From the NCBI RefSeq assembly GCF_042453785.1, contig NC_091675.1, positions 3,236,501 to 3,300,500 of the forward strand: a stretch of DNA of 64,000 nt, in the 5' to 3' direction. Source of the stretch: Malus domestica (Eukaryota; Streptophyta; Magnoliopsida; Rosales; Rosaceae). Below, in pieces: positions 41,907 to 64,000 of this stretch (within the stretch, counting starts at the first letter, position 1; each line of letters opens with the position of its first letter). The notes under the pieces were generated by a model. The model had not been told where the DNA came from and made no database searches. It was given only the letters and a program-made list of their open reading frames with translations. Made by a program: the position numbers and the translations under genes.

Positions 41907-42945
41907 AAAATTTTTGGGTGGATTTGGATTTTTTTAGATACGATTCGAAGGGATTAGCCATGTGTCTCTATCGACATGTAATTGTCTGATCTTGTATGAT
42001 TGTGGTTGTTTGTAATTTATGCGTTGCTTTGTATTTAATGGTAAGTCGGCAGATCTGCTTTCATTTTGTTCATCTTTTTCTTTTCAAATTTGAATTTTCA
42101 GATCGGCTGTGCTGATGATGTTGGTGGCGACGCCGTCGTTCGGCGGGGCTGTGGTTTTGGCGCCGGCGGGTTTTGATCAGTTTTTCCGGGTTTTAGCGGG
42201 GGATGAAGACGTCGCGCTTAATTGTTGTTTTCGGCCTTCTGTTGTCGTTTCTGTTGTCGTTTGGTAATAGTGGGCCTGAAGCCCAAACAGAAACTAAGTC
42301 GTTAATAACACACGCAACCGGGGTTTATAGTACGTTTTCCGGAGAGATTTTTCGAAGTACCCAGTATTCAAACAGACACTCCACGTGTCACAATACAAGC
42401 AAATACTCCATGTGTTATAATACAAGCCAAGAAAGGATATGCCTTTTCATGTCCGTCCATATGTCATAATACAAGCGAAGGCTCAAGGTCAATCTTGAGC
42501 CTTCCTTGGATCAAGACTTCTCTCTACATAAGCGATACTCCACGTGTCAATAAGCGAAACTCCATGTGTCACAATACATGCAAATACACAAGCCAAGAAA
42601 GTTTGGGAACAACATTATGAAATTCCTAATAAGCGATCAAATCAGGACTTCTCTCTACACATAAAATGTACAAACTTGACAAAGCCACCTTTGCATAATC
42701 ACAACTTCTACACCAAACCATCTCTAACCAACCCGTCTACCACAACAATTTCAATCAGTCTCAGTATGGAACAAGTAGAATTTGAAGATGTTAGTCACAT
42801 CGGAATTACCGTGGAGAGGAGGAGCGCAATCGACTCTCTGCACTGATGTACTTCGCTCTGTTCGTTCCTCTTCCGTTCATCCATCCTCGGTTAAGTTAAT
42901 GGGATAATGTCGAAAAAATGGGCGAGTCAAAATATGTCCAACTGG
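41907..42945. other. Convergent spacer between COPT5 and GCR1
   Basis: It contains both 3' UTRs. At 42375-42570 there are several degenerate repeats of ACTCCACGTGTCACAATACA, each with CACGTGTC or a variant. The part from about 42610 onward has a counterpart near 60400-60730 in the downstream duplicate. Confidence 0.55.
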
Positions 42946-45781
42946 CTAGTGCTCATCTTCATTTGTCAGCGCCACTAGTTCACTCTCTTGCTGTTGGTTC
43001 CTAAACTTTGAACTGTTGGGGAACCATCTTTTAAGCCTGTCTGGCCAGAACCTAATGGTTTACAAACACAACCATTCACTTAAGTAAGAATAATGCATCC
43101 TAAACCCGATATCTAAAGCTCAACAATAGTGATCGCAATAAAATCCGATCTTAAGTATTGAGAGATTGATATTGGAAAAAAACACAAAGCAACTGTGGCT
43201 TACAAATCCAATCTTTCATATATTGCCCGTCGCACTGAGGAGTTCAAGCCATAGGCTATGGAGTTGAACAGGCCCTGTAACAAGTATAAAAGTAATAAAT
43301 TTTCATCAGGATAATAAAAAAACTAATAAACTAGAACCCATTTAGATACGAACAATGTTCTTCGAAACATGAATTGACCATTGTACCAAAAAAAAAGAAA
43401 CTAACTTGCCGTAGAAAATTAGTAAGTTACCATGAGTGCAGCTGTCCCAACATCAAGAACTGAGAGCCAAAATATTTTATGACTTGGTTCAATAAAGTCA
43501 TGAATGCGGTTGATTGTGCTAAAAGCCCATGATCCTATCAGGATGAGCGGATAGTACCCCCACCGGTTCAAAGCCTGTTGAAAGCAATGGAATACAATTA
43601 AGATGAACAGTTGAAGGTACTCTTTTTTAAAGAGAAACTATTGAATGTACAGTTAAACAATCTAACGTACATGAAACATGAGACCGCTAAAACATCATAA
43701 ATATAAAACTTCCACATTTCTGTGCCTATATATACGAACTCAGTCTGAGTCTGACCCCAGGAAACCAGTTGCAGCACAAAATACCTTCATTTCTGCTCTA
43801 GAATCTGATTGGTAAGTCCGATCTGACATGCCAGCTGCCATCTATAATTTCCAAACCAGAATAATGATCTCAACAAGTGTAAAAGTGAGTGGAAATTATT
43901 TGTTCGAAAAAAATAAATGCAAGCGAGAATACATACACGTCTCGCATTCTTCAGCATGCTTATCACTTGAAAATATGTAAAACCATTGTAAAGAATTGCA
44001 CCCCAAAGTGGCATATAAAATGTTACAAGGTGAAGCGCCTGTAAAAATGGGTGGAAAAATTAGAGCACAGAGAAGAAAACTTAATTACATCACGAAGCTA
44101 TAGTCAGAACTCCAAATGAGCGGATTGTGTAATAATGACTTGAGGTAGTTCTAAATTCTAATACAAATGATGCTTAGATTTGTAAAGATAAAACTTGTTT
44201 AGAATCTACAACACATATATCAAGAATTAATGAAATACAGCTATCAAAATTTAGAACTATGACATATTAAAACATTGATAAATCTTCATGATCAACTTAG
44301 TCTCCGTGTAGAGATTGCTGTTCATGCAGTTACACCATGAGTAGGGCATAGATTTTACTCCATTAACAATTTTACATTTTTAATCTAAAGTTATGGTATC
44401 TTGCCAACAAATCGATAAATACAGCATCGATGACAGCAGCTTCCACATTCCAAATTTTCTCCTAGACATCATAAAAAAATCTTCAATTCCCCTCTATTTT
44501 TCATAAAGCACGGTGCACTACAAAATAAGCACACGACCAACTTTTTTACAAAAGAATTCTAGAAATTCCAATGGCCTAGGAAACTAAAACATTTCAACTA
44601 ATAGGTACTATGTCCTTACCTTTCCAGTACGCCCTGATTGTGACCAACACCATGTACCTAGGTGGCTATGGTTATTCCCAATAGAGCGCACAACTGTCAC
44701 AACTAATGAAGTCCCTGTGAAGAGGAGAAAAAGAAGCAAATGAATTCTAATGAGCCTCACAAATTATACATAACGAAAACCAAATTTATCATATAGAAAA
44801 TAACTCCTTTTTCTAAAACCATTATTCTATCTCTCATCGGAGGAACAGAAGAAGAAGCTAACTTTACATCACTAAAAGTAAAAAGAGAGATCTTTTGGCA
44901 ACAGGTAAAAAGGTCATACCCCAAACATACAAATGAAACATTGCCTCCATATCTTCAACATCAGTTTTGTGTCTAACAACTGTGCGGTGGAGTGTAAAAG
45001 CGATCGTGGTAGTCCATAAGAAAGACGCTACATAGAAGAAATGAGTACTGTAGCCGTGCAAGTAACAGAAAAATCCTCTGGATGGATCCCTGCGCACGAA
45101 AGCAACTTACTTTATAATCGCTTAGAACCCGAATCAGATAAAATTGTGGCATTATCCAAATGCACTTGTCTGGGAGGGAAAAGTGAGCTTACCCAACCAT
45201 GCTGAAGAAGCTACAAAGCATATCCTGCATTCCAAAATAACAATAGCAATAAAATTTCCAACCTTTTTTTTTACTCCCATTTTCTTCAAAATTTAAGTTA
45301 AACACTGAAGAACAACAAAGCCCTAAACCCTAATTTATCTTGAATCCTTCAAGCTCAAGTCATCAAGGTAAATCCACTATACAAAGCCAAGAGCTTCAAA
45401 ATTTTCTAGCGCTTTTCAACTAAAAATTAAATCCAAAATTTTGTAGATTTTTGTTCAATTTCCGAGTTTTTACAAGTTTGCAGAAATAGAACCCACCCCG
45501 CCACCGGAAATCGAGCAATTAGATCTAACGACGCAATCAATTCTTATCATTTTTCAGCAAAGTTAAGAGAGAGAGAGAGAGAGAGAGAGAGGACGCACGG
45601 AGAGCGCGAGGTAGAAGACGAGCTTGAAGGAGAACTTGCGGAGCTCTTTGAAGAGGACGTAGCAGAGGACGATGAACCCCGACCCGACGAACGATAGGCT
45701 CGCCGCTCCGGCGTTAACTGCCGTCAAGACTTCGCGATCGTACGCCGTCAGACCTCCGGCGACTTGCCCCGTCTCCCCCAT
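42946..45781 (-). CDS. GCR1: GCR1, seven-transmembrane G-protein-coupled-receptor-like protein
   Basis: Nine GT-AG exons (45781-45599, 45224-45193, 45089-44920, 44714-44620, 44038-43937, 43841-43785, 43574-43431, 43274-43204, 43051-42946) sum to 319 residues; Arabidopsis GCR1 has 326. The ATG at 45781 opens MGETGQVAGGLTAYDREVLT. Family landmarks: FVGSGFIVLCYVLFKELRKF, FLWTTTIAFTLHRTVVRHKT, GNNHSHLGTWCWSQSG, YMPLWGAILYNGFTYFQVI, RWGYYPLILIGSWAFSTINR and GTAALMGLFNSIAYGLNSSV. These cover the plant cAR-like 7TM core. GCR1 has been linked to G-protein, ABA and cell-cycle responses in Arabidopsis; its ligand is unsettled. A GA microsatellite (45567-45591) lies right after the exon 1 donor, which is GTGCGT. 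A pseudogene copy lies at 60.7-63.4 kb. Confidence 0.94.
45567..45591. repeat. GA microsatellite at the GCR1 exon 1 donor
   Basis: About 12 GA units a few bases into intron 1 of GCR1. The pseudogene copy has the same feature at 63149-63180 with more units, so the repeat predates the duplication and has since changed length. Confidence 0.9.
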
Positions 45782-46854
45782 TTGATCGCGCCAATAGAGT
45801 CTCAAATACTCGTCCTCAGAGAAACTTCAAAACGCTCCGTACTGTGTTTTGGTCGCTTCTTGGGTCTGCTGCATTAATTCCGCGTGACAGACGAAGGAAA
45901 TGACTTGTTTTTTACGTGTTTAATTACAAATTTAGACCCGTAATGATTTGTATCCAACATGATTCCCGTTGGCAAATCTGTCAATTTGAATTGTATTCTG
46001 TTCATGTTTGAGGCCCATTAAATTGTTTTTATAACGACTAAAAGTATTATATTAAAATAAAAATATTTTATAATATTGTTTGATAGAAAAAGTTATAGGC
46101 AGACAACATTTAACAAAAACGTGGTCCAATCCAACTAAAAAGCTCATGCATAATTATTTTTAATAATTTTGTTTGAATTGATTTTAGAAAGACTAAAACA
46201 CTTTCTAATTGCGTTTCCAAAAAACTAAAAGCACTTACAAATTATAGAATTGCTTCTGGAAAAATTACTTTTCCATGAAAAACATCTATTAGATGCTTGT
46301 TAGGGAATCACTTGAAAGTTTAATAAACATTTTAACGAGTTTTTTTTCTTAAATATTTATAGAAAAAATATTTATGAGCAGAAGTATTTCTTATAATAAA
46401 ATATATTCAAACGAACCCGAGATTTCACCATTTTAGACCTCTGAAAGGGAATATATACACTCAAACTTTGTTTGTCATCTCAACTGGTCGTTAACCAATT
46501 CTTCAATTTAGTTCTCAAAAGTATATTCCTGCCTTCTGAAGGAAACCCAAGATAATTTCTAACTAATGTTATAGTAAATACTAAAAAATATTGAAGTTAG
46601 GGTCCCACTTGGAGATGGACCGTTTTCAAGCAAGGAATTGTTTGGGGCAGTTGTTAAAATTCCTGATTAGGTTTCTGTCTATTCTCAATCAAGTGTTTTA
46701 TTTCCTTAATCCAACCAGATGGATCATTAATTTAATTATAGTTTGTGAAAAAAAAAAATAGCATTTTTTTTTATAGCAAACCACAAACTAAAGTTTGACA
46801 CATGTGCATAAATTTTTCAACGAGTTGACTTCATTGCGTATTTATGATAGTTTA
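45782..46854. other. GCR1 upstream region and intergenic DNA
   Basis: Promoter side of GCR1. The first 550 bases or so are recognisably similar to 63380-64000 beside the pseudogene (shared CAAAAATATTTTAT, AACTCCATGCATA/AGCTCATGCATA and AATCACTTGA/AGTCACTTGA stretches). After about 46330 the similarity cannot be followed because the window ends. Confidence 0.5.
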
Positions 46855-46965: not shown

Positions 46966-47225
46966 TTTTTCTTAAATTTGCACATACCACACATTGTCAC
47001 ATCAATATTACTTCAAAACATTAAAACACATTTGTCGTTTAAGTACTACATCTACACTCGAAAATAAGAGCCTCATAAAAAATATATCTATACACTACTA
47101 ATCTATTACAAATATTATGTGCAAGGATATGCAAAATGAAAGCGTTTTTGTTTTCAATGTTGTGAAGCCTTTCTCAAAAGTTTAAACATTACCAATGGAA
47201 CTCAAAGCTTAATGAAAGTGACCCA

Positions 47226-47799
47226 CTAGTGTGTTTATTCGTACTTTCATTAAGTATAACATAAGATTTTGTGATATCCACTTGTGTAAATATTTTAAAT
47301 TGAAGATCGAATTCATTCATTGTATTCATATAGGGTCAAGGAGTGTAGTTGTAAAAAATCATCAAAATCGGAGTTAAAATAGCCGTTAAATTGTGATTTT
47401 TCGTTTATAACCGTCGAAAAGTTTTATCCCATTACTTAATCTTTAAATGTTTGTTTTTTGCAATTTTTGGCGTATGCGATCTCGAAGCATATACAAACAA
47501 GTATGACGGTTAGATCATTGAAAATAGTTTCGTAGAATGCGTATCTCATAAAAAAAATAGATCCACTAACACTAAAGAGTTTATTCTTACTTTCATTAAG
47601 TATAACATAAGATTTTGTGGTATCCACTAATGTAAATATTTTAAATTGAAGATCGAATTCATTCATTGTATTCATATAGGGTCAAGGAGTGTAGCTGTAA
47701 AAAATCATCAAAATCGGAGTTAAAATAACCGTTAAATCGTGATTTTTCGTTTATAACCGTCGAAAAGTTTTGTCTCATTACTTGATATTTGAATGTTTG
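47226..47799. repeat. 346-bp tandem array, left part
   Basis: Monomers carry TTTATTCGTACTTTCATTAA, GAAGATCGAATTCATTCATT and GATTTTTCGTTTATAACCGT. The marker GAAGATCGAA occurs at 47302 and 47648, 346 bases apart. The array is cut at 47799 by the LTR retrotransposon and resumes at 56859. Open frames here (for example 47436-47675 on minus) are repeat-coded and have no known family. Confidence 0.9.
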
Positions 47800-48845
47800 T
47801 GTGAACACGGAAAATTCCTGAAACGAAAGAGACAAGAAACGACGCGCACAAACAAATATTATGTATTTGAAGATTTTGGGTTACAATCTCTCTCTAATTT
47901 GATCCTCTGATTCGATCTCCGTAAGGTGTGTATTTGTGGATGTGTGATTGATCCAATGGGCCGTTGGGCTTGATCTAAGGATGAACGTTCTTCAAGGGCC
48001 GTGGACTTGATCTTGAAGGTGGATTTGAGCGGATCTTCAAATGGGCTTTTGGGCTTGATCTTTGAAGAACAGTGACGAACGGATCTCCAAGGGCTTTTGG
48101 GCTTGATCTTGAAGAACAGTGATGAACGGATCTTCAAGGGCTTTTGGGCTTGATCTTGAAGAACGGTTGGATGTGTGGATTTGTCGACGTTGTTGATCCA
48201 AAGGGCCGTTGGGGCTTGATCTTGGATGAGCGGATGATGAACGATGGTGCTTTCTTCAAGGGCCGTCGAGGCTTGATCTTGAATTGGTGGATGGTTGATC
48301 CAAGGGCCGTCGGGGCTTGATCTTGGAAGAACGATGAACGAAGAACGAATAACACTTTCTTCAAAGGCCGTCGGGGCTTGATCTTGAATTGGTGGATGAT
48401 TGTTGATCCAAAGGGCCGTTGGGGCTTGATCTTGGAAGAACGATGAACGAAGAACACTTTCTTCAAGGGTCGTCGGGGCTTGATCTTGGAAGAACGATGA
48501 ACGAAGAACGAAGAAGGCTTTCTTGATTCTTCCGGAACCTGGATGCTTGAGAGCTTCGGAGTTTTAGAGCTTCAGAGCTTCAAGGTGTCATATGAATTAG
48601 TTCCCCCTCAAATGAATGAAATAGGCTTGTATTTATAGAATTTTCCAAGGCCTAATTTTGAATATAATATTCCAGATGAAATAAGTCGTTTCTGCCAGGT
48701 GTTGACACGTGTCCTGTTTGATGACTTTTCCAACTATTTCGATTTTTGTTTAGACACACGCTACGTGTAAAATTTATGTAATACATGAGCGTTGAAACTT
48801 TGATTTATCGGTCAACATTTATTTACCGAAATTTCGATGTCTACA
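47800..48845 (-). repeat. 3' LTR of the retrotransposon
   Basis: 1,046 bp. It carries many copies of a core GGGCCGTNGGGGCTTGATCTTG spaced roughly 35-65 bases apart between 47958 and 48500. The repeated frame reads IKPKSP/IKPRRP on the minus strand but is not a plausible protein. Beyond the repeats, the stretch 48600-48845 is single-copy. A likely core promoter would lie here, but none was assigned. Confidence 0.92.
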
Positions 48846-48860
48846 AATGCCCCCACTTCA
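48846..48860 (-). other. Polypurine tract
   Basis: Read on the minus strand this is GAAGTGGGGGCATT directly before TGTAGACATC, the start of the 3' LTR. It would prime plus-strand DNA synthesis and fixes the element's polarity. Confidence 0.75.
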
Positions 48861-48929
48861 AGGCGCGTCGTATACATGTGCTTGTCACGTGTAAGAGATG
48901 CGTTTTGAAGTCCCTTACTGTAGATGTCG

Positions 48930-49400
48930 ATCCAAGGGCCGTCGAGGCTTGATCTTGAATTGGGCTGGAGATTTCTTCAAGGGCCGTTGAGGCTTGATCT
49001 TGAATTGGGCTTGAGATTTCTTCAAGGGCCGTTGAGGCTTGTTCTTGAACTTTTGTTTGAAATTTCTTCAAGGGCCATCGAGGCTTGATCTTGAAGGTTG
49101 AAATTGGACCACAAGGAGCTTCATGTGGTAGATGATCTTTGGCTTTGGTAGTGGGTGAATCGGCACATATTTTGTTGCGCTTGTTGACTTTCCACAGCTT
49201 TGATCTTGAATTGGGTTGGAGGATTTTCTGGATTCCTCCAATTGTTGATTTTCCACAGCTTATTCTTGAACTAGGTTTTGATTCAAGGGTGGTAGACACT
49301 TAATCTTGAATCGGACTCGTGATTTCCTCAAGGGCCGTCGAGGCTTGATCTTGAATTTGGCTGGAAATTTCTTCAAGGGCCGTTGAGGCTTGATTCTTGA
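48930..49400 (-). repeat. LTR-type GGCTTGATCTTGAA repeats inside the element
   Basis: About eight copies of TTCTTCAAGGGCCGT(C/T)GAGGCTTG followed by ATCTTGAA, the same motif family as in the LTRs but here in internal sequence. Open frames in this stretch are repeat-coded. Confidence 0.75.
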
Positions 49401-49844
49401 AGGTTGACTCGAACATATAGCAAGCAGGCACGAGGTGAAGGTGACGACCTATTTCTTTGTTCAATCTTTCTAATTCACACATGAGCAGTTTGGTCAACGG
49501 TATGATCTTCAAGATTGATGAACTCTTCGATATCTGGGATTGGCGCTTTAACAAATTGCCCGTGATTTCCGCAAAGCTGAATTTGCGTGTGACGGGTGCT
49601 AACGCGTCTGGAAAAGCAAGATGCTTCTCCGATTTCTGAGCGTGCCTCTTCGATTTTTGAATCGGCATTTTCGAACTCTGAGCTCACCTATTCGATCTCT
49701 GAAATCCCGTCGAGTGCTGATTTTTTTTATAGAGGCACGCAGTTCGTTTCAAAGCACACTTGAATTTTCGCTTGTAGAAACTCCCTTCTTGCACTTCTAA
49801 GGTCTTGATTTGTCCGACCTCTTCTTTCTTCAACACCTTTGAAA

Positions 49845-50474
49845 ATGTCTGGACCCTCCGATCGTCGTTTTGATTTGAACCTTGATGAAGAGGTAGTCCC
49901 GTCTTCTCCAGATAACATATGGCGCCCATCATTCATATCCCCTACTGGTCCTCTTACCGTTGGGGATTCGGTGATGAAGAATGATATGACCGCTGCGGTG
50001 ATGGCCCGGAACCTTGTCACCCCCAAAGATAACAGACTACTTTCCAGGCGGTCTGATGAGTTGGCTGTTAAGGAGTCTCTGGCTCTTAGTGTGCAGTGTG
50101 CGGGTTCTGTGTCCAACATGGCCCAACGGCTATATGCTCGAACCCGTCAAGTTGAATTGTTGGCGGCTGAAGTGATGAGTCTCAAACAGGAGATTAGGGG
50201 GCTCAAGCATGAGAATAAACAGTTGCACAAGCTCGCACACAACTATGCCACAAATATGAAGAGGAAAATTGACCAGATGTAGGAATCTGATGGTCAGATT
50301 TTACTTGATCATCGGAGGTTTGTGGGTTTGTTCCAACAACATTTGCCTTCGTCTTCTGGGGCTATACCGCGTAGTGAAGCTCCGAATGATCAACCTTTGG
50401 CTCCTCTTCTTCCTGGAGTTCCGCCGAGTGGTGAGGCTTCAAACAGTCAACCTCCAGCGCCTCTCATTTCTTGA
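49845..50474 (+). CDS. Coiled-coil ORF opposite to gag, interrupted by one in-frame TAG
   Basis: Starts with ATG at 49845 (MSGPSDRRFDLNLDEEVVPS), stops at TAG 50280-50282 after 145 codons, and continues in the same frame for 63 sense codons to TGA at 50472-50474. The segment ELLAAEVMSLKQEIRGLKHE has heptad-like hydrophobic spacing, suggesting a coiled coil. The downstream part is Pro-rich with repeated PSGEA/PRSEA motifs. The strand is opposite to gag, so it cannot be read from the genomic retroelement RNA. Antisense extra ORFs are known in some plant Ty3/gypsy Tat-lineage elements. I do not know its function. The TAG may come from CAG by a C-to-T change. Confidence 0.65.
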
Positions 50475-50544
50475 GCTCTGCCGAGTGGTGAGGTGGCACT
50501 TGATCGTCCTTGAAGATCCCTTCTTGTAAATTTGATTTGATTTT

Positions 50545-50638
50545 TTTTTTTTTTTTTGTATGTACAATGCAAATTTATGTAAAAATTTCCAGAAAGAAAA
50601 TAAATAAAAACGGACTTTATTTCTCTCGATGCATTTGG

Positions 50639-50670
<32 letters not shown>

Positions 50671-51050
50671 AAACATACATATATTATGCACACGTACATA
50701 CATATTAATTTTTCACGTGGACTGATCCACCATTCTTTTTTTTTTTTTTTTTTTTAATTTTTTCACATGGTGCCAGAGGCACCAAGACTCCGCCAAATTT
50801 TTTTTTATATTATTTCTCCTTCTTTCCGGTCTTGGCTTTAAAACAATCAAAACACAGTAAGTGGAGCACCCAAAACCTTTACAATATATATATATTTTTT
50901 TATTCTTTTATTTTTTTCTTTGCACATGGTGCCTAATGCACCCCCCCCTTTTTTTTTCACGTGGTGACAGCACCACTTTGCTTTGCTCCACCCTTTTTTT
51001 TTCACGTGGTGACAGCACCATTTGCTTTGCTCCACCACTTTTTTTTTTTT
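50545..51050. repeat. Poly-T tracts and CACGTGGTGACAGCACCA repeats
   Basis: Several T runs of 9-24 bases (for example 50640-50665, 50738-50755). Between 50955 and 51043 there are two near-identical units of TTTTTTTTCACGTGGTGACA followed by GCACCA(C)TTTGCTTTGCTCCACC, with a related diverged copy at about 50925. No gene is recognisable. Confidence 0.8.
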
Positions 51051-51433
51051 GTATAAATTAGGATGCTTGGCTGAGGGATTTTGTAGGGAAGGACGAACAC
51101 GGACGGAGAGCTGGAGTTTAAGGAAGAGCTTCTCGGCCGGCTAGTCGTTTGACAGCGGTCTTTGAAGTTGGTGGCAGCTGCGAGTCAAGAGACGGAGGAG
51201 GGTGCAAGAGAAGAGCGGTGCAGCCTTGATGTCGGAGACTTTGCCGTCGCCGTTGCTGCTTGGAACTGATGGCAGAAGGGGAGAGCTGCAGAGTCCTGCT
51301 CGCGACTACCGCAGCTGTTGTGACGATGGTTGCCGGTCGTGGCAGAGCTGGAGTTGTAGGCAGCGGCGCAGTGGTGAGGAGAACAGAGGAGGACGTCGCC
51401 GCCGCCAACGAAAACCACCAAGTGTTCATAGCC

Positions 51434-51761
51434 TTAACACTTGTTCCTTCGCTGCAACTTTAGGCTTCGCCGGAGCTGCTGCTTTCTTCTTCTCATCTCC
51501 TTTGAGAGTCTGACCAAAGCTAGAAGCAGCCGCGGAAGGTTTTGACGAAATGGAGCTCCTTTTGCGGCAGACAATGATGGGTGCAGTACACTTTTGCTTA
51601 GCAAGCAAGGACTCTGATCTTTCAAGCTGCTCAGGGCGTTTGGGTTGCTGACTTGTGGCGGGTGCAGGAACTACGGAGTCTGATGGCTCAGATGAAGGGT
51701 CGTGGTTGGGCCGAGTGATGAGATTCTTCCACTTCATTTCCATCGAAAAATTCTTTTTCAA
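51434..51761 (-). CDS. Unrecognised reading frame inside the retrotransposon
   Basis: An open frame of about 110 codons with no clear ATG at its start, containing RPNHDPSSEPSDSVVPAPAT and ERSESLLAKQKCTAPIIV and ending in a Lys/Ala-rich tail. Its codon-like composition and position directly after the BTB piece suggest another captured exon, but I do not recognise the source. Confidence 0.35.
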
Positions 51762-51846
51762 ACAAAGGAGATCTAGCTGCCAGTACTAACTTGTGGGCAT
51801 GAAACCTTTCCCCACATACATTGAAAGTAACATCTGAACCTTCCTC
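51739..51846 (-). pseudogene. Captured BTB/POZ domain fragment (BPM-like)
   Basis: Residues GSDVTFNVCGERFHAHKLVL followed by AARSPLFEKEFFDG are the N-terminal part of a BTB domain as found in BTB-MATH (BPM) adaptors of CUL3 ubiquitin ligases (typical form GSDVTFxVxGExFxAHKLVL). Similarity begins after an acidic Ser/Glu/Asp-rich stretch (51850-52070, unknown source) and stops abruptly after FFDG, so only about 36 residues of the domain are present. The strand is the same as gag. Confidence 0.8.
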
Positions 51847-52190
51847 ATTCTCCATGTCAATACTTTCAGAATTGGAATAATCCATTTCAGTGCTTGAAAG
51901 GTCTTCAGAGTCGCTCTCTTTCAAGCAGCTTCCAGTGGAATTGTCTTCTCGATCTGACAGTGCTCCGTAGTCTTCATCTGCATCTTCTTTTTGGTCTTCT
52001 TCAGGAAATTCTTCGAAGCTTTCTGCCTCAGATTCACTCTCCGAATGCGGTGATCTATCCGACGGGTTCTCCACAACTAGGTTGTTGGCATAATTTTATG
52101 TTTCTGCTTCATCACTTGCATCATTTGGAAACGCAGGACCCTCGTAAACTTCTTGTTCTCCTGCAAAATCAGCTCCTGCTTTCCTTCCAA

Positions 52191-52406
52191 TTGCCTCTTG
52201 TATCTGGTTTTGCATTGAGGGCAAGACTGATTCCCATCCTTCCTCTCATACTCATAGCATGGCCTGCAAACAGGAAAGGCACAGACATCGCAGGCAATGA
52301 ATGGTTCCCCATCTGCAGTCTTCCCAACATTATCCCCACAGATCTGGCAGACCTTACCCCCGATGCTCTTCATGGGCTTTGCCGCAGTTTCTCCTTCTGA
52401 CTCCAT
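52191..52406 (-). pseudogene. Captured cellulose synthase (CesA) N-terminal zinc-finger fragment
   Basis: Begins at ATG 52406 with [20 protein letters not shown] and runs 72 residues through [40 protein letters not shown] and [12 protein letters not shown]. All eight zinc-ligand cysteines of the CesA RING-type domain are present. The MESEGE start is typical of CesA3-type proteins. Similarity stops at KRQ, where normal CesA continues with a GSP-type sequence; unrelated sequence follows. The CesA catalytic domain and membrane helices are absent. The 400 bases upstream look like a CesA 5' leader. Confidence 0.92.
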
Positions 52407-52830
52407 TGCCACTTTCTCCTTTGCTCAGATGTGTACAATGGCTTAAAATTCTTGTTCAATCTCAACAAGATCTATGCATGTCTAAGATCGCAGTAACTTT
52501 TTTTCCACTCCAAAATCCCAAGATCTTAAGATCAAAAGAACCGATCTTTATTGCCAATTCTTCAAATCCGGGAAACCCAATTGAAAATAAACCCAAATCG
52601 ATCCAATTCTCCAGCAGATCTCAGAAATTAGACAAATTGGAAAAAAAAAAACAGATGAAAAGTTCACTGCTTGGATCCTAAAAATCAAAAGAGAGAGTGA
52701 TCAAATTAATACACTGAAGCAGACAACCACAACTCCAATCACAGCTCTCTCTCTCTCTCTAAAAAGCGTCTCAGTCTGTGTATAACTGTAAACATTTATA
52801 TAATGGGTAGGAGTGGGAGAGGAGAAAATG
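52407..52830 (-). promoter_or_regulatory. Probable captured CesA leader with TATA box
   Basis: Upstream of the captured CesA start codon (minus strand) lies CCCATTATATAAATG (TATA-like TATATAAA at 52794-52802). It is followed by a GA run and a T-rich leader ending just before the ATG. The arrangement resembles a plant core promoter plus 5' UTR, possibly with an intron. That it came from the CesA donor locus is inference. Confidence 0.45.
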
Positions 52831-52832
52831 GC

Positions 52833-52940
52833 TTAAGACTTGAGAGGTAGGTGCTGCATGCTTTGCAGGCCGGCGGAGGCAGTTTCTTGCACGGCAGTCC
52901 GATCGTCCATCTTGGAGAAGCCAACTAGATCTATAGCCAT
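52833..52940 (-). pseudogene. Captured WRKY (group IId) N-terminal fragment
   Basis: ATG at 52940, 35 codons, TAA at 52833. MAIDLVGFSKMDDRTAVQET and ASAGLQSMQHL match the N-terminus of WRKY11/17-type proteins (form MxVDxMxxxKMxDQTAIQEAAS xGLxSMEHLI). Similarity ends at QHL, then four unrelated residues and a stop. The DNA-binding WRKYGQK domain, plant zinc cluster and calmodulin-binding region are absent. The CT-rich sequence just upstream may be its 5' UTR. Confidence 0.8.
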
Positions 52941-53454
52941 CGGAGCTGGCTTTTGCTTTGAGAATACAGAGAGACTTGGGAGGGAGGATTGATGGAGTCA
53001 TGAATTGGGAGAGTTTTGAGAACCTTGACGAATTCGGGCGTTGAGGGTCATCAACACGATCCCATCGACGAAGAAGAAGCAGAATGGGCCTCTTGCGTGG
53101 CCTATGGCATCAGCCGGTCTCTGAGCTTCTGGGCCAGTAAATTGGAGAGAGGCCTGGGCTTTGACTTGCAGAGAGATTGGGCTCTGGGAGCCGCTTGTAG
53201 TATTTTGGTTAAAGGGGTTGCTTCTTGTGGCCACTTATATATATATATATATATATTATTTTTTTGTAAATACATAAAACATTTATCTTTTTTTTCTTTT
53301 TTTTTTTAACTTTTAATAAAATCTTTATTCCTTATTTTGGTGTGACTGAACTCAAATTTTGAATATTCGAGCTGCCTACGTACCCCTCCAAAGAAGAGAT
53401 CAAGTCGTAACGTAGTTCAAATACATACATATATTTTTTTTTCTTTTGGTGCCG

Positions 53455-53805
53455 TTTGCAGTTTCAACTCGTGCAGACAAGGAGCATTTGGTGCCGTGTT
53501 GTAGTTTCAGCTCGTGCAGGCAAGGAGCGTTGGTGTCGCATTTTATGCTCATGCGGATCAGGAGCGTTGTGCCATGCGGTTTAGGCTCGTGCAGGCGAGG
53601 AGCCTCGTGTCCTACAGTTTAGGCTCGTGCGGACAAGGAGCTTTGGTTCGTGCAGTTTAGGCTCGTGCGAACAAGGAGCTTTGGTTCGTGCAGTTTAGGC
53701 TCGTGCGAACAAGGAGTTTTGTGCCATGCAGTTTAGGCTCGTGCAGGCGAGGAGCCTTGGTTCGTGCAGTTTAGGCTCGTGCGAACAAGGAGCTTTGGTT
53801 CGTCA
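53455..53805. repeat. Minisatellite, about ten copies of a roughly 39-bp unit
   Basis: The consensus is close to GTGCAGTTTAGGCTCGTGCG followed by AACAAGGAGCTTTGGTTC. Copies at the left are more diverged than those at the right. It lies between gag and the captured host gene pieces, inside the retrotransposon. Confidence 0.88.
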
Positions 53806-53820
53806 AGCGATCTGAGAGAG

Positions 53821-55515
53821 TCATTCATCGCAATCTTCATAGCAAGGAGCCTTGACTGAGTAGTTGAAGAAGTCTTCAGGAAAGAAATCACGCATCGTGA
53901 TGGGGATGGACGATTTATGTGTCGAAATTTCCTCATTTTCAACACGTTCACGTTGCTTTGAAGGTTGACAAGAGCTGCTTTGCCCCCTTTCCGATTGGCG
54001 GACTTGTGGAGGAGACGTATGCTTCTTGTGCAATTTCTTAGGAGTGACTTGAGTCCATCCTTCAATTTTGCTTGTCTTGGACGATGCCCCTAGAGGTTGA
54101 GGTGAAAACTTTGAGTCGGAAGAGCCAGAAGTGAAGGTGGTATAGTTTGACTTCGCCACTTCGTCAAGATCTAGCTCGATGATTCCTTTCTGAGCCAGCT
54201 TCATGATGAGATCTTTCAGCACGAAACATTTTTCTGTCGGATGACTGATGAAGCGGTGGAATTTACAGTATCTTGGACTGTCGGTGCGATTCATCTCTTC
54301 TGGCCGTTTGCACTCAGGCAAACCAATCACCTTCTTTTCCAGCAAGTCTTCTAACATGGCAACCACATCAGGGTCGGGGAATGGATAAGTCTTCTCCTCA
54401 AGCTCCTTCAAAGTGCGTATACGCATCTCTTGATCACGAAAAGCTTCGGTTTGAATCGCCTTGCCTCGTGTGGATATTTTGACAGGAGATGTGTTGACCG
54501 TCATCGCTTCCTTGGTGGGTTTCCATGCAGCCTTTTCCACCTTTGTCCCAAGAACTTTGTCGTTCTTGTAGTCGACGATCGGTTCATTCTTCCCATGATG
54601 GGCGATGCTCAACTCCATGTCATGGGCGCGAGTGGCCAATTCCTCGAAAGTCCGTGGTTTAATGCCTTGAATGATGTATTGCAAACCCCATTGCATGCCT
54701 TGGATGCACATCTCGATTGAAGAGGTTTCCGAGAGCCTGTCTTTACAGTCGAGGCTTAGAGTGCGCCATCTGTTGATGTAGTCAATGACTGGCTCGTCCT
54801 TCCACTGCTTTGTGCTCGTTAGCTCTAGCATGCTCACAGTGCGGCGGGTGCTGTAGAAACGGTTGAGGAATTCCCGCTCTAATTGCTCCCAACTGTTGAT
54901 GGACTAAGGCTCCAGATCCGTGTACCACTCAAAGGCGTTTCCTTTCAGCGAGCGCACAAACTGCTTGGCGAGGTAATCCCATTCGGTTCCTGCGTTGTTG
55001 CAGGTTTCAACGAAGTGGGCAACATGCTGTTTCGGGTTTCCCTTTCCATCAAATTGCATGAACTTTGGTGGTTGATAACCCCTCGGCATCCTTAAGGCGT
55101 CGATCTTCTTTGAATACGGCTTTGAGTACAACCCGGAGGTATTTGAGCTCCCTTTGTACTGTGCCTTGATGGTGTTGGTGATCATCTCTTGCAGCTGCTG
55201 GATAGAAAGAGATCCCATGAGTGCCGCTGCTTGGTCTGGCTCGGGCTTCGCATCGTTTTTCTCCACCTGAGGCTCATCTTCTGGGTTAGGGTTCTCGTCG
55301 TCATGTGGCTCCAGTCGGCTGACGAGTGCAGCGATTTGCAAGTCTTTTTCTTCCACAGTTCGGGTTAGCCTTGCGATTGCTTCATTCATCTGAGCCAGTT
55401 GTTCTTCAACGGAGGTAACGCCGATAGTCATGACTTGTGCGACCAATAGACGTGACTTTCCTTTAGACATCCAGGATGCTGATGAAGAACGTCGTTGGCT
55501 GCTTTGAGATGTCAT
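53821..55515 (-). pseudogene. gag: Retrotransposon gag with one in-frame TAG
   Basis: A minus-strand frame from ATG 55515 to TAG at 54904-54906 that resumes in the same frame and ends at 53821, about 565 codons in all. Before the stop: an N-terminal coiled coil (EEQLAQMNEAIARLTRTVEE), then the retrotrans_gag region PPKFMQFDGKGNPKQHVAHF, FVRSLKGNAFEWYTDLEP. After it: SINSWEQLEREFLNRF, EPVIDYINRWRTLSLDCKDR and EELATRAHDMELSI. This is the Ty3/gypsy-type gag fold of plant elements. A later CKFHRFISHPTEKCFVLKDL stretch is the usual Cys/His region before protease, but no protease follows. The stop would truncate Gag inside its core domain. Confidence 0.85.
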
Positions 55516-55792
55516 CTTATGTGCCTCAGCATCATGCTTCGGTGCCCCCAGCGAGGTCAGGTTGATGACAGACTCACACCTTGGATGCTCCCCTTGCTCT
55601 TTTAGCGGCACCAATTTTGAAGTGGCATGTTGAAGAGCGGTTGTGGCGCCAATGGATTATCCGTTTGCGGCAGAAGTGCTTAGGATCCTTCCCTCAGTGG
55701 TTGCAAGAACGGCTTGTCCCTTGCTTGATGCCATTGACTTTGAGGTGTGCTTGGATTCCTTGAACGGAGAAAGAGATGAGAGGTAGAGATTG

Positions 55793-55812
55793 TCCCACTG
55801 GGCGTGCCAATT
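55793..55812 (-). other. Primer-binding site
   Basis: Directly after the 5' LTR on the minus strand comes AATTGGCACGCCCAGTGGGA. A TTGGCACGCC-type sequence at this position is where a tRNA 3' end would prime minus-strand DNA synthesis. I cannot name the tRNA with confidence. Confidence 0.6.
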
Positions 55813-56858
55813 TGTGAACACGGAAAATTCCTGAAACGAAAGAGACAAGAAACGACGCGTACAAACAAATATTATGTATTTGAAGATTTTGGGTTACAAT
55901 CTCTCTCTAATTTGATCATCTGATTCGATCTCCGTAAGGTGTGTATTTGTGGATGTGTGATTGATCCAATGGGCCGTTGGGCTTGATCTAAGGATGAACG
56001 TTCTTCAAGGGCCGTGGACTTGATCTTGAAGGTGAATTTGAGCGGATCTTCAAAGGGGCTTTTGGGCTTGATCTTTGAAGAACAGTGACGAACGGATCTC
56101 CAAGGGCTTTTGGGCTTGATCTTGAAGAACAGTGATGAACGGATCTTCAAGGGCTTTTGGGCTTGATCTTGAATAACGGTTTGATGTGTGGATTTGTCGA
56201 CGTTGTTGATCCAAATGGCCGTTGGGGCTTGATCTTGGATGAGCGGATGATGAACGATGGTGCTTTCTTCAAGGGTCGTCGAGGCTTGATCTTGAATTGG
56301 TGGATGGTTGATCCAAGGGCCGTCAGGGCTTGATCTTGGAAGAACGATGAACGAAGAACGAAGAACACTTTCTTCAAGGGCCGTCGAGGCTTGATCTTGA
56401 ATTGGTGGATGATTGTTGATCCAAAGGGCCGTTGGGGCTTGATCTTGGAAGAACGATGAACGAAGAACACTTTCTTCAAGGGTCGTCGGGGCTTGATCTT
56501 GGAAGAACGATGAACGAAGAACGAAGAAGGCTTTCTTGATTCTTCCGGAACCTGGATGCTTGAGAGCTTCGGAGTTTTAGAGCTTCAGAGCTTCAAGGTG
56601 TCATATGAATTGGTTCCCCCTCAAATGAATGAAATAGGCTTGTATTTATAGAATTTTCCAAGGCCTAATTTTGAATATAATATTCCAGATGAAATAAGTC
56701 GTTTCTGCCAGGTGTTGACACGTGTCCTGTTTGATGACTTTTCCAACTATTTCGATTTTTGTTTAGACACACGCTACGTGTAAAATTTATGTAATACATG
56801 AGCGTTGAAACTTTGATTTATCGGTCAACATTTATTTACCGAAATTTCGATGTCTACA
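55813..56858 (-). repeat. 5' LTR of the retrotransposon
   Basis: 1,046 bp, the same length as the partner LTR at 47800. Differences seen by eye include CGCGTAC for CGCGCAC, GATCATCTG for GATCCTCTG and GAATAACGG for GAAGAACGG. The same GGGCTTGATCTTG repeat block is present. Confidence 0.92.
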
Positions 56859-58340
56859 GTTTGTTTTTTGCAATTTTTGGCATATGCAATCTCGAAGTAT
56901 ATACAAACATGTTTGACGATTGGATCATTGAAACTAGTTTCGTAGAATGCGTATCCCATCAAAACAATAGATTCACTAACACTTAAAAGAGTTTATTTAT
57001 ACTTTCATTAAGTATAACATAACTAGTGTAAATATTTTAAATTGAAGATCGAATTCATTCATTGTATTCATATAGGGTCAAGGAGTGTAGCTGTACAAAA
57101 TTATCAAAATCGGAGTTAAAATAACCGTTAAATCGTGATTTTTCGTTTATAACCGTCGAAAAGTTTTGTCTTGTTACTTGATCTCTGAATGTTTGTTTTT
57201 TGCAATTTTTGGCGTATGCGATCTTGAAGTATATACAAACATGTTTGACGGTTGGATCGTTGAAACTAGTTTCGTAGAATGCGTATCCCATCAAAACAAT
57301 AGATTCACCAACACTTAAAAGTTTATTCATACTTTCATCAAATATAACATAAGATTTTGTGGTATCCACTAGTGTAAATATTTTAAATTGAAGATCGAAT
57401 TCATTCATTGTATTCATATAGGGTCAAGGAGTGTAGATGTAAAAAATCATCAAAATCGAAGTTAAAAGAACCGTTAAATCATGATTTTTTGTTTACAACC
57501 GTCGAAAATTTTGTCGCATTACTTGATCTCTGAATGTTTGTTTTTTGCAATTTTTGGCGTATGCGATCTCGAAGCATATACAAACAAGTTTGACGGTTGG
57601 ATCGTTGAAACTAGTTTCGCAAAATGTGTATATCATCAAAATAATAGATTCACTAATACTTAAAGAGTTTATTTATATTTTCATTGAGTATAACATAAGA
57701 TTTTGTGATATCCACTAATGTAAATATTTTAAATTGAAGATCGAAATCATTCATTGTATTCATATAGGGCCAAGGAGTGTAGTTGTAAAAAATTATCAAA
57801 ATTGGAGTTAAAATAACCGTTAAATCGTGATTTTTCGTTTATAACCGTCGAAAAGTTTTGTCTCGTTACTTGATCTTTGAATGTTTTTTTTTTGCAATTT
57901 TTGGCGTATGCGATCTTGAAGTATATACAAACATGTTTGATGGTTGGATCGTTGAAACTAGTTTCTTAGAATGTGTATCCCATCAAAATAATAGATTCAC
58001 TAACACTTAAGAGTTTATTCATACTTTCATCAAGTATAATATAAGATTTTGTGGTATCCCCTAGTGTAAATCTTTTAAATTGAAGATCGAATTCATTCAT
58101 TGTATTCATATAGGGTCAAGGAGTATAGATGTAAAAAATCATCAAAATCGGAGTTAAAATAACCGTTAAATCGTGATTTTTCGTTTATAACCGTCGAAAA
58201 GTTTTGTCTCGTTACTTTATCTGTGATTGTTTGTTTTTTTTAATTTTTTGTTGATGAGATCTGGAAGCATATACAAACAAGTTTGACGGTTGGATCGTTG
58301 AAATTAGTTTCGTATAATTCGTATCCCATGAAGTTCAATG
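56859..58340. repeat. 346-bp tandem array, right part
   Basis: The marker GAAGATCGAA or its variant occurs at 57044, 57390, 57736 and 58082, exactly 346 bases apart each time. Subtracting the 9,064-bp retrotransposon plus target duplication, the step across the insertion is 332, explained by a 14-bp loss near 57020. The array has about six monomers in all. From 58340 the sequence becomes TA-rich. Confidence 0.92.
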
Positions 58341-60065: not shown

Positions 60066-60730
60066 GATTGATAGGATTCGATAGGCTGCAGCTTGCTTTT
60101 GCCAATTTGCATTTGCTTTTTATGAAAATCTTGTGTTATTGGTGTTAAAAGTGCAAAAATTCGCCATCTTCAAATTTGATGAATTTGTACCTACAAAACA
60201 ATTAAACATCTTTTATCAATGACCAAAGACACGCCCACAGAGTGTTGTTGAGTTTGGTCAATAGCTTTCGATACCTAAGTCAAGTTTATCCGAAAAGAAA
60301 GAGAGTTTAAGAATAATTGCATAGCAAAAGCTTACTAGAAATTGGTAAAAAATGAGATCAATTTTCACCCTTCTTGGATCGATTGATAATGACGCTTGTT
60401 CTTGGGAAAACATTGTGAAATTCCTAATCAAAGATCAATCAAGACTTTACTCTACAGGTAAAATTCCATCTTTGCATAATCACAGCTTCTGCACGAAATT
60501 CTACTCTAACCAAACCATCTAGATATAAATCTACCAGAACAATTTCAAACAGTCCTAATGTGGAACAAGTGGAATTTGAAGATGTTAGTGAGATCGGAAT
60601 TGCCATGGAGAGGAGGAGCGCAATCGACTCTGTACTGATGTACTTTGCTGTGCTCCTCTTCCGTTTCTTCATTCCATCCTCAGTTAAGTTAATGAGATAA
60701 TGTTGAAAAAATGGGCAACTCAACATACGT
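60066..60730. other. Duplicate of the COPT5-GCR1 spacer
   Basis: From about 60400 onward it resembles 42600-42945 (TTTGAAGATGTTAGT, GAGAGGAGGAGCGCAATCGA, TCAGTTAAGTTAAT). The CACGTGTC repeats of the original spacer are missing. Because the GCR1 stop is lost, an open frame now runs on to 60439. Confidence 0.6.
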
Positions 60731-63147
60731 CCAACTTGCTGCTGCGGATCTTCAATTTTCAGCGCCACTAGTTCACTCCTTAGCTGTTGGTTCCTAAACT
60801 TTGAACTCTTGGGGAACCATCTTTTAAGCCTGTCTGGCCAAAACCTAATGGTTTCCAAACACAACCATTCAGTTACGAACAACGCATGCTAAACCCGATA
60901 TCTAAAGGACTAAAACTCAACAACAATGATCACCATAAAATCCGATCTTAACTATCGAGAGATTGATATTGGAAAAAAAACACAAAACAACCGTGACTTA
61001 CAAATCCAATCTTTCATATATTGCCCGTCGCACTGAGGAGTTCAAGCCACAGGGAGTTGAACAGGTCCTATAACAAGTATAAAAGTAATAAGATTTCATC
61101 AGGATAATTAAAAAAAAACTAGTAAACTAGACCACAATTATGCATGAACAATGTTCTTTGGAACACAAAATGCCCATTATACCAGAAAGAGGTACTAACT
61201 TGCCATAGAAAATAGCAAGATACCGTGAGTCCAGCTGTCCCAACATCAAGAACTGGGAGCCAAAACATTTTATGACTTTGTTCAACAAAGTCATGAATGC
61301 GGTTGATTGTGCCAAAAGCCTATGATCCTATCAGGATGAGTGGATAGTACCCCCACCGGTTCAAAGCCTGTTGAATGAAAGCAATGGAAAACAATTGACA
61401 TGAACTGCTATTGAATGTACATTTAAATGGTCTATAACACAGTTTGAGTCTGACCCTAGGAAACCAGTTGCAGCACAATACACCTTCATTTCTGCTCTTG
61501 AATCTGATTGGTAAACCAAATCTGACATGCCACCCGCCATCTATAATTTCTGAACCAGAATAATGATCTCAACAAGTGTAAAAGTGAGTGGAATTATTTG
61601 TCCGAAAAAATAAATGATAGCACCACTACATACATGTCTTGCATTCTCCAGCATGCTTATCACTTGAAAATATGTAAAAACCATTGTAAAGAACTGCACC
61701 CCAAAGTGGCATGTGAAATGTTATGAGGTTAAGCGCCTGTAAAAATGGGTGGAAAATCAGAGCACAGTGAAGAAAACTTAATTACATCAGGCAGCTATAG
61801 CCAGAACTCCAAATGACCGAATTGTGCAATAATGACTTGAGGTAGTTCTAGTACAAATGATGCTTTGATTTGTACAGATAAAACTTGTTTAGAATATACA
61901 ACACAGTGTAGATATTGTTATTCATGCAGTTATACCATGAGTAGGACATAGATTTTACTCCATTATCATTGGTTATACATTTTTAATCTAAAGTTATGGT
62001 ATATTGCAAACAAATCGATAAATATAGTATCGATGACAGCAGCTTCCACATTCCCCCCTGTAAAAATCCTCCCACATATCATATAAAAAAATCCTCACTT
62101 CCCCTCTATTTTTTTTTATAAGCACGGTGCACTACAATAATAAGCACACGACAAACTCTTTTGCAAAAGAATTCTAGAAATTCCTATGGTCTAGGAAACT
62201 AAAACATCGCAACTAATAGGTACTGCATCCTTACCTTTCCAGTACGCCCTGATTGTGACCAACACCATGTACCTAGGTGGCTATGGTTATTCCCAATAGA
62301 GCACACAAGTGTCACAACTAATGAAGTCCCAGTGAAGAGGAGAAAAAGAAGCAAATGAACTCTAATGAGCTTCACAAATTATACATAATGAAAACAGAAT
62401 TTAGCATGTAGAAATAACTCCTTTCTCTAAAACCCTTATTCTATCTCTCACCGGAGGAACTGAAGAAGAAGCTACCTCTACATCACTGAAAGTAAAACGA
62501 GAGATCTTTTGCAACAGGTAAAAATGTCATACCCCAAACATACAAATGAAACATTGCCTCCATATCTTCAACATCAGTTTTGTGTCTAACAACTGTGCGG
62601 TGGAGTGTAAAAGCGATCGTGTTAGTCCATAAGAAAGACGCTACAAGGAAGAAATGAGTACTGTCTGGATGGATCCCTGAGCACGAAAGCAACTTACCTT
62701 ATAATCACTTAGAACCCCGAATCAGATAAAATTGTTACATTATCCAAATGCACTTGTCTGGGAGGGAAAAGTGAGCTTACCCAACCATGCTGAAGAAGCT
62801 ACAAAGCATATCCTGCATTCCAAAATAACAATAACAATAAAGTTTCCTTTTTTTTTTAACTTCCATTTTATTCAAAATTTAAGTTATACACTGAAGAACA
62901 ACAAAGCCCTAAACCCTAAAATTTATCTTGAATCTTTCAGGCTCAAGTCATCAAGGTAAATCCATTATATAAAGCTAAGAGCTTCCCATTTTTCTAGCGA
63001 TTTTAAAGAAATTAAATCCAAAGTTTTATAGACTTTGTTCAATTTCCGAGTTTTTACAAGTTTCCAGAAACAGAACCCACCATGTCACCGGCAATCGAGC
63101 AATCAGATCCAACAACGCAATCAACTCTTATCATTTTCAGCAAAGTT

Positions 63148-63185
<38 letters not shown>

Positions 63186-63372
63186 GTACGGAGAGCGCGA
63201 GATAGAAGACGAGCTTGAAGGAGAGCTTGCGGAGCTCTTTGAAGAGGACGTAGCAGAGGACGATGAACCCCGACCCGACAAACGAGAGGCTCGCCTCTCC
63301 GGCGTTAACTGCCGTCAAGACTTCGCGATCGTAGGCCGTCAGACCTCCGGCGACTTGCCCCGTCGCCGCCAT
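60731..63372 (-). pseudogene. GCR1 pseudogene, intron-containing duplicate
   Basis: All nine GCR1 exon regions are recognisable with their introns, so this is a DNA-level copy. Exon 1 (63372-63190) is intact. Lesions: a 26-bp loss in exon 3 near 62665 that removes GFFCYLHGY and shifts the frame; the exon 4 acceptor AG changed to TG (62330); one extra A in exon 5 near 61680 (frameshift); TGG to TAG in exon 7 near 61321; a net 5-base loss in exon 8 near 61050; and loss of the normal stop. It cannot give a full GCR1. Confidence 0.93.
63149..63180. repeat. GA microsatellite in the GCR1 pseudogene
   Basis: About 16 GA units at the same position as the 12-unit tract in intron 1 of intact GCR1. Confidence 0.9.
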
Positions 63373-64000
63373 TTTGTTCTTTCACTCTCTCTCGATCGCG
63401 CCAATTAAATTTCGAATACTCGCCCTCATTCTCTCGGAATACAGAAACTTCAAAACGCTCCGTTTTCGTATTTTGAGTCTTGACGGCAATGGTCGGTATA
63501 GGGGTCTGCTGCTTTAATTTCGTTTGACGGGCGAAGGATACGAGTTGTTTGTTACATGTTTAATTACAAATTTGGAGCGCTATTGATTTGTATCCAACAT
63601 GATTCATGATGGCTAATGTGTCAAATTCAATTTTCTTGAGATCATTTTTGGTGTTCTAATTTTCAACTAGTGTTTTTTATGATTATATCATGTTTATGTT
63701 TACGTCTTATTTAACACTGTTTTCAAAATAACTAAAAATTTTACCGTCAAACAAAAATATTTTATGATTCGTCATATAGAAAAATTATAGATGAAAAACA
63801 CTTTCAATGCTTTTAAAAGTGTCAATTTGCTTCTACCACAAACACTTGTAACAAAAACCTTGTGCGGATTAAAAAACTCCATGCATACCCGCTTCTAATG
63901 ACCTTGTGTGAGACTGTTTTCAGATAAATCGCCTAGTAGATGCTCTTCTCCATGAAAAAAGAAAAAACCTATTAGATATTTATCAAGGAGTCACTTGACT
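63373..64000. other. Duplicate of the GCR1 upstream region
   Basis: Similar in patches to 45782-46330 of the intact locus. The homology appears to continue to the window edge, so the right end of the duplication is not seen here. Confidence 0.55.

Follow-up and report, generated by a model that had tools for sequence, protein, structure and literature searches.

A family of pol-less long terminal repeat retrotransposons in apple carries varying host-gene pieces, probably from spliced transcripts, in one slot

A window of 64,000 nucleotides from Malus domestica (assembly GCF_042453785.1, contig NC_091675.1, positions 3,236,501 to 3,300,500 of the forward strand) contains a long terminal repeat (LTR) retrotransposon at window positions 47800-56858, which reads on the minus strand. 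It belongs to a family whose copies differ in their cargo. Copies of this family have a fixed frame and a variable slot, the introns of donor genes are missing from the cargo, the captured pieces are mostly in sense orientation, and target duplications surround copies with different cargo. It is very probable that this is a pol-less LTR family with a 2-3 kb slot holding pieces of spliced transcripts, and that these entered as a reverse transcriptase switched repeatedly from element RNA to packaged host mRNAs and back. An earlier note, made from the letters of the window alone, had proposed a gag-only LTR element that moved as a unit with several host fragments, and this proposal is supported by the comparisons described here.

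The family was searched with a 301-base piece of the LTR against the 651-Mb, 19-contig assembly, which gave 1,552 first-look candidates, 40 of them scored. Fifteen LTR loci were fetched from the scored matches; twelve hold a full copy within the fetched stretch, and three have the LTR and no full copy. The window element was compared with the twelve full copies (L009, L010, L011, L012, L013, L014, L015, L016, L017, L024, L027 and L028), making 13 copies in all. All twelve other copies match at the LTRs and the 3' block, and 11-12 do so over most of gag (five at element positions E1201-1400; L015 is without much of gag). None of the twelve matches across E3701-5600, the 1.9-kb middle of the window element, which is the variable cargo region (51259-53158, minus strand). 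The same slot is likewise without matches when L009, L016 or L027 is used as the reference. Slot lengths are 2.0-3.2 kb, the cargo differs in each of the 13 copies, and the longest cargo match between any two of them is 869 bp at 93% (L011 and L014). The frame of LTR, primer-binding site (PBS), gag and 38-bp repeats on one side, and of antisense open reading frame (ORF) block and LTR on the other, is fixed, and the slot between them is variable.

The 13 cargo regions were translated in six frames and scanned against Pfam at the curated cut-off. Host domains on the sense strand exceed this cut-off in 10 of the 13 cargos: zf-UDP and BTB in the window element; MAM33, RRM_1 and zf-CCCH in L009; DUF1191 and WD40 in L010; HVA22 in L011; DIOX_N in L016; ADH_N, ADH_zinc_N and SHMT in L027; CLP1_N in L015; GRAS in L017; PC-Esterase in L028; and zf-C3HC4 in L024. 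Counted as domain-bearing genes, 14 are in sense and two in antisense orientation (one-sided P 0.002).

The cargo of the window element consists of WRKY, CesA and BTB pieces and a fourth host piece, all in sense orientation. The earlier note had named three host genes; all three are present, and the number rises to at least four with a piece of an acidic-protein gene. A donor search with the window cargo, in which 40 of 189 candidates were scored, places the donor of the WRKY piece (52849-53021, minus strand) on contig C13 at 98% identity. We take this piece to be a WRKY gene with a group IId N-terminus, on the strength of its motif and of a Plant_zn_clust match below the cut-off in the C13 locus, where the reading frame extends past the piece. 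The WRKY segment is also present, and longer, in another element on C15; L036 was considered as WRKY donor and was dropped, as it is another element. The CesA piece (52192-52847, minus strand) comprises the 5' leader, start codon and zf-UDP domain (E 5.8e-36) of a C7 donor in three exons. Next to it lies the acidic-protein piece (51839-52197, minus strand), which is 98% identical in sense to C7:2757414-2757772, a source gene distinct from the BTB gene. The segment with the BTB piece (51200-51854, minus strand; domain at about 51715-51852, E 1.5e-9) is 96% common with elements on C13 and C14, and an older cargo segment (53022-53221, minus strand) is common with elements on C7 and C15.

Thirteen donor genes were located for six elements, 12 of them represented in sense. 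The names CAD, U2AF35, CesA and WRKY, given on top of Pfam matches, are presumptive in part. In four elements, the cargo is without 13 of the 14 donor introns tested, each absent at a GT-AG site (12 by script, one by eye). Both CesA introns, of 302 and 659 bp, are gone from the window element at exact GT-AG sites. In L009, two MAM33 introns are absent, one of them placed on just 16 matching bases out of 20, as are four of a U2AF35-like gene; L028 holds a PC-esterase gene minus two introns (one by eye) and an ankyrin gene minus two, and SHMT in L027 is without one. L017 has three consecutive pieces in sense, from a PPR gene (98.5%), an Aminotran_5 gene (99.5%) and a GRAS gene (93.5%). With the L016 cargo as query, the donor search yielded element modules and no clear multi-exon donor. 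A model in which every piece would represent an mRNA 5' end, with the switch occurring on running off the cap, was rejected, since the pieces of PPR, aminotransferase, GRAS and PC-esterase genes begin within coding regions.

Copies with different cargo have moved as units. Perfect 5-bp target duplications were found in all seven copies having both flanks in hand, i.e. the window element (GTTTG), its sister on C16 (GCTAC), L014 (GTGCT), L015 (GTCTT), L017 (TAAAT), L024 (GTAAC) and L028 (ATATT). For the window element this bears out the 1,046-bp LTR pair and perfect duplication described earlier. The LTRs of L017 are without mismatch over 942 bp. The C16 sister (L039/L030/L040/L043) has near-complete window cargo at 94-98%, depending on the aligner, and an intact 3' block, and is the one second element with the same cargo, which none of the twelve other copies has. 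Its LTRs are only 82-84% like those of the window element, and its cargo and LTRs look as if exchanged between subfamilies. A full sister of the L009 cargo lies on C12 (97%), and the cargos of L010, L016, L017, L027 and L028 have only partial sharing among the 40 scored matches. Because pieces from the window element, L010, L016, L017 and L027 recur in other elements, cargo pieces appear, judged from these sequences, to be captured and then reshuffled between elements. The earlier note had considered that the composite would be a one-off nested insertion if other family copies lacked all three fragments and had pol in their place. The twelve other copies do lack these fragments in the slot, but none has pol domains there and most have other host fragments instead. 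With the cargo also present in the C16 sister, the window element does not represent a one-off nested insertion, and its family is not a uniform composite.

The presence of gag, the absence of pol and the single orientation of the WRKY, CesA and BTB pieces, all noted earlier, are confirmed by the Pfam scans and donor loci. The Retrotrans_gag domain of the window element has an E value of 1.1e-8, and a search that took in 2,271 candidates gave 912 gag relatives at E <= 0.001; among the 120 listed, the top matches are proteins of Malus domestica with up to 94% identity. No gag relatives were found in a viral contig collection. When aligned with its relatives, the window gag is interrupted by in-frame stops, and many Malus relatives have an uninterrupted frame that ends at a shared C-terminus. 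No pol domains were found by Pfam on either strand of 51200-53260 or in nine scanned ORFs of the window element, and none at E 0.01 on either strand in any of the 13 cargo regions, a scan that leaves out the extra 0.5-1.3 kb of 3' block in other copies.

The enzymes needed for copying would be supplied by another element. A helper search limited to long proteins (868-2760 amino acids; 120 listed of 132 matches) found no Malus gag-pol protein with near-identical gag among those listed. Gag-pol proteins of Fagus and others have 57-60% gag identity, and the nearest Malus protein in the matches listed is a gag-protease protein, P0127, at 61%. P0127-type matches in the assembly have open frames of 1,430-2,625 amino acids (34 scored of 11,090 candidates). 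In the stretches upstream of two of them the PBS is exact (L054) or two bases off (L055), and the LTR ends are 72-76% like those of the window element. The stretch downstream of one P0127-type locus contains RVT_1, RNase H and integrase zinc-finger domains, and RVT_1 is found in the relative L056. The earlier note had suggested looking for a pol-bearing partner with matching LTRs. A pol-bearing relative has been found, with LTR ends that are divergent, and P0127-type elements are best regarded as a candidate helper and not as a matched partner.

These features can be accommodated by the following route. Element RNA and stray host mRNAs would be enclosed together in Gag particles, and a polymerase supplied in trans by a pol-bearing relative would start on the element RNA. 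The polymerase would switch onto an mRNA where the two templates share a short match. It may then switch to other mRNAs, or onto RNA from another element, before it would go back to the element RNA upstream. The resulting chimera would keep the LTRs, PBS and gag leader, so that another round of packaging and copying would be open to it, and its pieces could be passed on and reshuffled between elements. Eight junctions between pieces were aligned against both sources. Exact overlaps are present at three, namely 6 bp between the CesA and acidic-protein pieces of the window element and 7 bp and 23 bp in L017; a random junction has a chance of about 0.0013 of an overlap of 6 bp or more. A further locus, L053 (C17:2839950-2840650), which may be a gene or another element, has a 23-bp exact stretch in common with the donor of the Aminotran_5 piece where this piece meets its neighbor in L017.

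Four other explanations of the cargo were weighed. Its diversity could be ancient, going back to one or a few inherited cargos that diverged and recombined with no continuing capture. The recurrence of pieces between elements, e.g. the 869 bp in L011 and L014 and the L016 modules, fits this explanation, but donor identities of 97.8-99.5% in several pieces and the mismatch-free LTRs of L017 point to recent capture, and the cargos name different genes; purely old diversity is improbable, and still the least improbable of the four. Processed pseudogenes made by a long interspersed nuclear element (LINE), inserted in an element and then copied along, would explain the absent introns. The pieces are however internal mRNA segments directly joined, several with overlaps of 6-23 bp, and to bring more than one gene per copy into a single slot in 10 of the 13 copies would require many independent insertions at one place, so LINE activity has only a slim chance of being the source.

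A Pack-MULE, Helitron or similar DNA transposon with captured gene fragments could also have nested in the LTR element, as such transposons hold several gene fragments, often in one orientation (a general observation, also covered in a review; PMC13317346). Captured genomic DNA would retain introns, yet 13 of the 14 tested are missing, which counts against Helitrons as well. Exact 12-base inverted matches in the interior, a search restricted to exact matches, are low-complexity runs and one pair not placed around the cargo, and a nested transposon does not account for one slot with different contents in 13 copies; its chance is slimmer than that of LINE-made pseudogenes. Least probable of all is classical 3' transduction, in which read-through past the 3' LTR took flanking genes in. 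This is the route listed first for plant retrotransposons, with Bs1 as example, in the review as far as available (PMC13317346), but the donors of the window cargo, on C13 and more than 1 Mb apart on C7, would require several separate events, and the cargo has gag on one side and the 3' block on the other and does not adjoin an LTR.

Some evidence does not favor template switching with packaged host mRNAs. Five of the eight junctions are without an exact 6-bp overlap: one has 5 bp (acidic-protein piece and BTB segment), one has an extra base (WRKY and CesA), and three are blurred or could not be placed. The donor gene of the BTB piece was not found among the 40 of 189 candidates scored with the window cargo, the gap at CAD in L027 does not correspond to a clean intron (the one exception among the 14), and the cargos of L012, L013 and L014 have no host domain above the Pfam cut-off. 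The pol-bearing relative is divergent (gag 61%), which makes it a helper candidate only. The twelve copies were chosen among the best LTR matches and are not a random sample. Two domain-bearing pieces are antisense, REF in L010 and DUF1677 in L016, and call for a second route. From coordinates only, the REF piece (cargo L010:3851-6466) is without two gaps, of 530 and 108 bp, of its C13 donor, and it thus looks like spliced cDNA in an unexpected orientation. Beyond the origin of the pieces, there is an even chance that the family gave up pol for a permanent capture bay and that trans-helped, ongoing uptake of spliced transcripts, joining of several genes, exchange and reinsertion make it a running exon-shuffling machine in the apple lineage.

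The window element has the hallmarks of an LTR retrotransposon, i.e. paired LTRs with TG...CA ends, a target duplication, and a PBS and polypurine tract adjoining the LTRs. Its order from 5' to 3' is 5' LTR, PBS, gag, 38-bp repeats, host pieces, antisense ORF, repeats, polypurine tract and 3' LTR, with the PBS just within the right LTR and the polypurine tract just within the left. The 5' LTR (55813-56858) and 3' LTR (47800-48845; TG...CA ends), both on the minus strand, are 1,046 bp each and differ by 13 substitutions (7 transitions, 6 transversions), a Kimura distance of 0.0125. At substitution rates of 1.3e-8 to 4e-9 the element would be 0.5-1.6 million years old. The PBS, TGGCACGCCCAGTGGGAC (55792-55809, minus strand), recurs as an identical string in three of four other copies checked (L009, L010 and L011). 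Gag (PF03732; 53821-55734, minus strand) is followed by the 38-bp tandem repeats (53457-53803, minus strand), which border the cargo slot on its upstream side. On the other side of the slot lies an antisense ORF (49845-50282, plus strand), coiled-coil-like and without significant Pfam match, in the 3' block common to all twelve other copies. The window copy is without 0.5-1.3 kb found in all twelve (at 49520-49523), and 45-bp tandem repeats related to repeats within the LTRs (48926-49414) precede the polypurine tract GAAGTGGGGGCATT (48846-48859, minus strand), which adjoins the 3' LTR. The GTTTG duplications lie directly outside the element ends at 47795-47799 and 56859-56863. The element splits a 346-bp satellite array (47224-47799 and 56859-58332), and two direct-orientation blocks, 83-89% alike, flank satellite and element (42603-46010 and 60402-63650).

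Capture of host genes by plant LTR elements has so far been represented mainly by Bs1, surveys of genes inside elements and single retrocopies. A family with copy-specific captured sets and locatable donors allows measurement of how often reverse transcriptase switches to host mRNA, how long a match is needed and which transcripts enter particles. It matters for annotation, where such copies can be called as genes, and bears on exon shuffling and possibly, to speculate, on small-RNA silencing of donor genes.

Terminal-repeat retrotransposons with GAG (TR-GAG) are non-autonomous LTR elements with gag only. The window element resembles them in having a gag domain without pol and differs in that its gag is itself interrupted by in-frame stops; we know of no TR-GAG element with variable host cargo. 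The Retand lineage of plant Gypsy elements has a long 3' region with an antisense ORF and tandem repeats, according to the parts of its description available (PMC11963269), and the window element likewise has an antisense ORF and tandem repeats towards its 3' LTR. Retand is however defined by a reverse transcriptase, which the window element lacks. A TRP28 domain is a further Retand feature; the antisense ORF here matches no Pfam family significantly, in a search made without a TRP28 profile. Template-switching LTR retrocopies, in which host mRNA enters an LTR element via short matches, are described from animals and also cited for Bs1 (PMC5408686); they are single retrocopies in that account, whereas here a whole family has serial, multi-gene and recirculating cargo. 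A survey located 672 genes within LTR elements in rice and 1,343 in sorghum (PMC3726574); as summarized there, genes inside elements were counted, and here spliced cargo lies in a common slot. The closest precedent is maize Bs1, an LTR retrotransposon with segments of three host genes, a plasma-membrane ATPase, a xylan endohydrolase and a beta-1,3-glucanase (PMC13317346), to which the window element is alike in holding several RNA-derived host genes between its LTRs. Compared with Bs1 as the review describes it, the content here differs in all 13 copies, lies in one fixed slot and comes from at least 13 located donor genes in six elements. No published family with copy-specific spliced cargo was recognized in the literature searched, in which subscription journals are sparsely covered. 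Bs1, template-switching retrocopies and LTR-captured genes are known, and, as far as this literature extends, the family-wide variable cargo bay is new.

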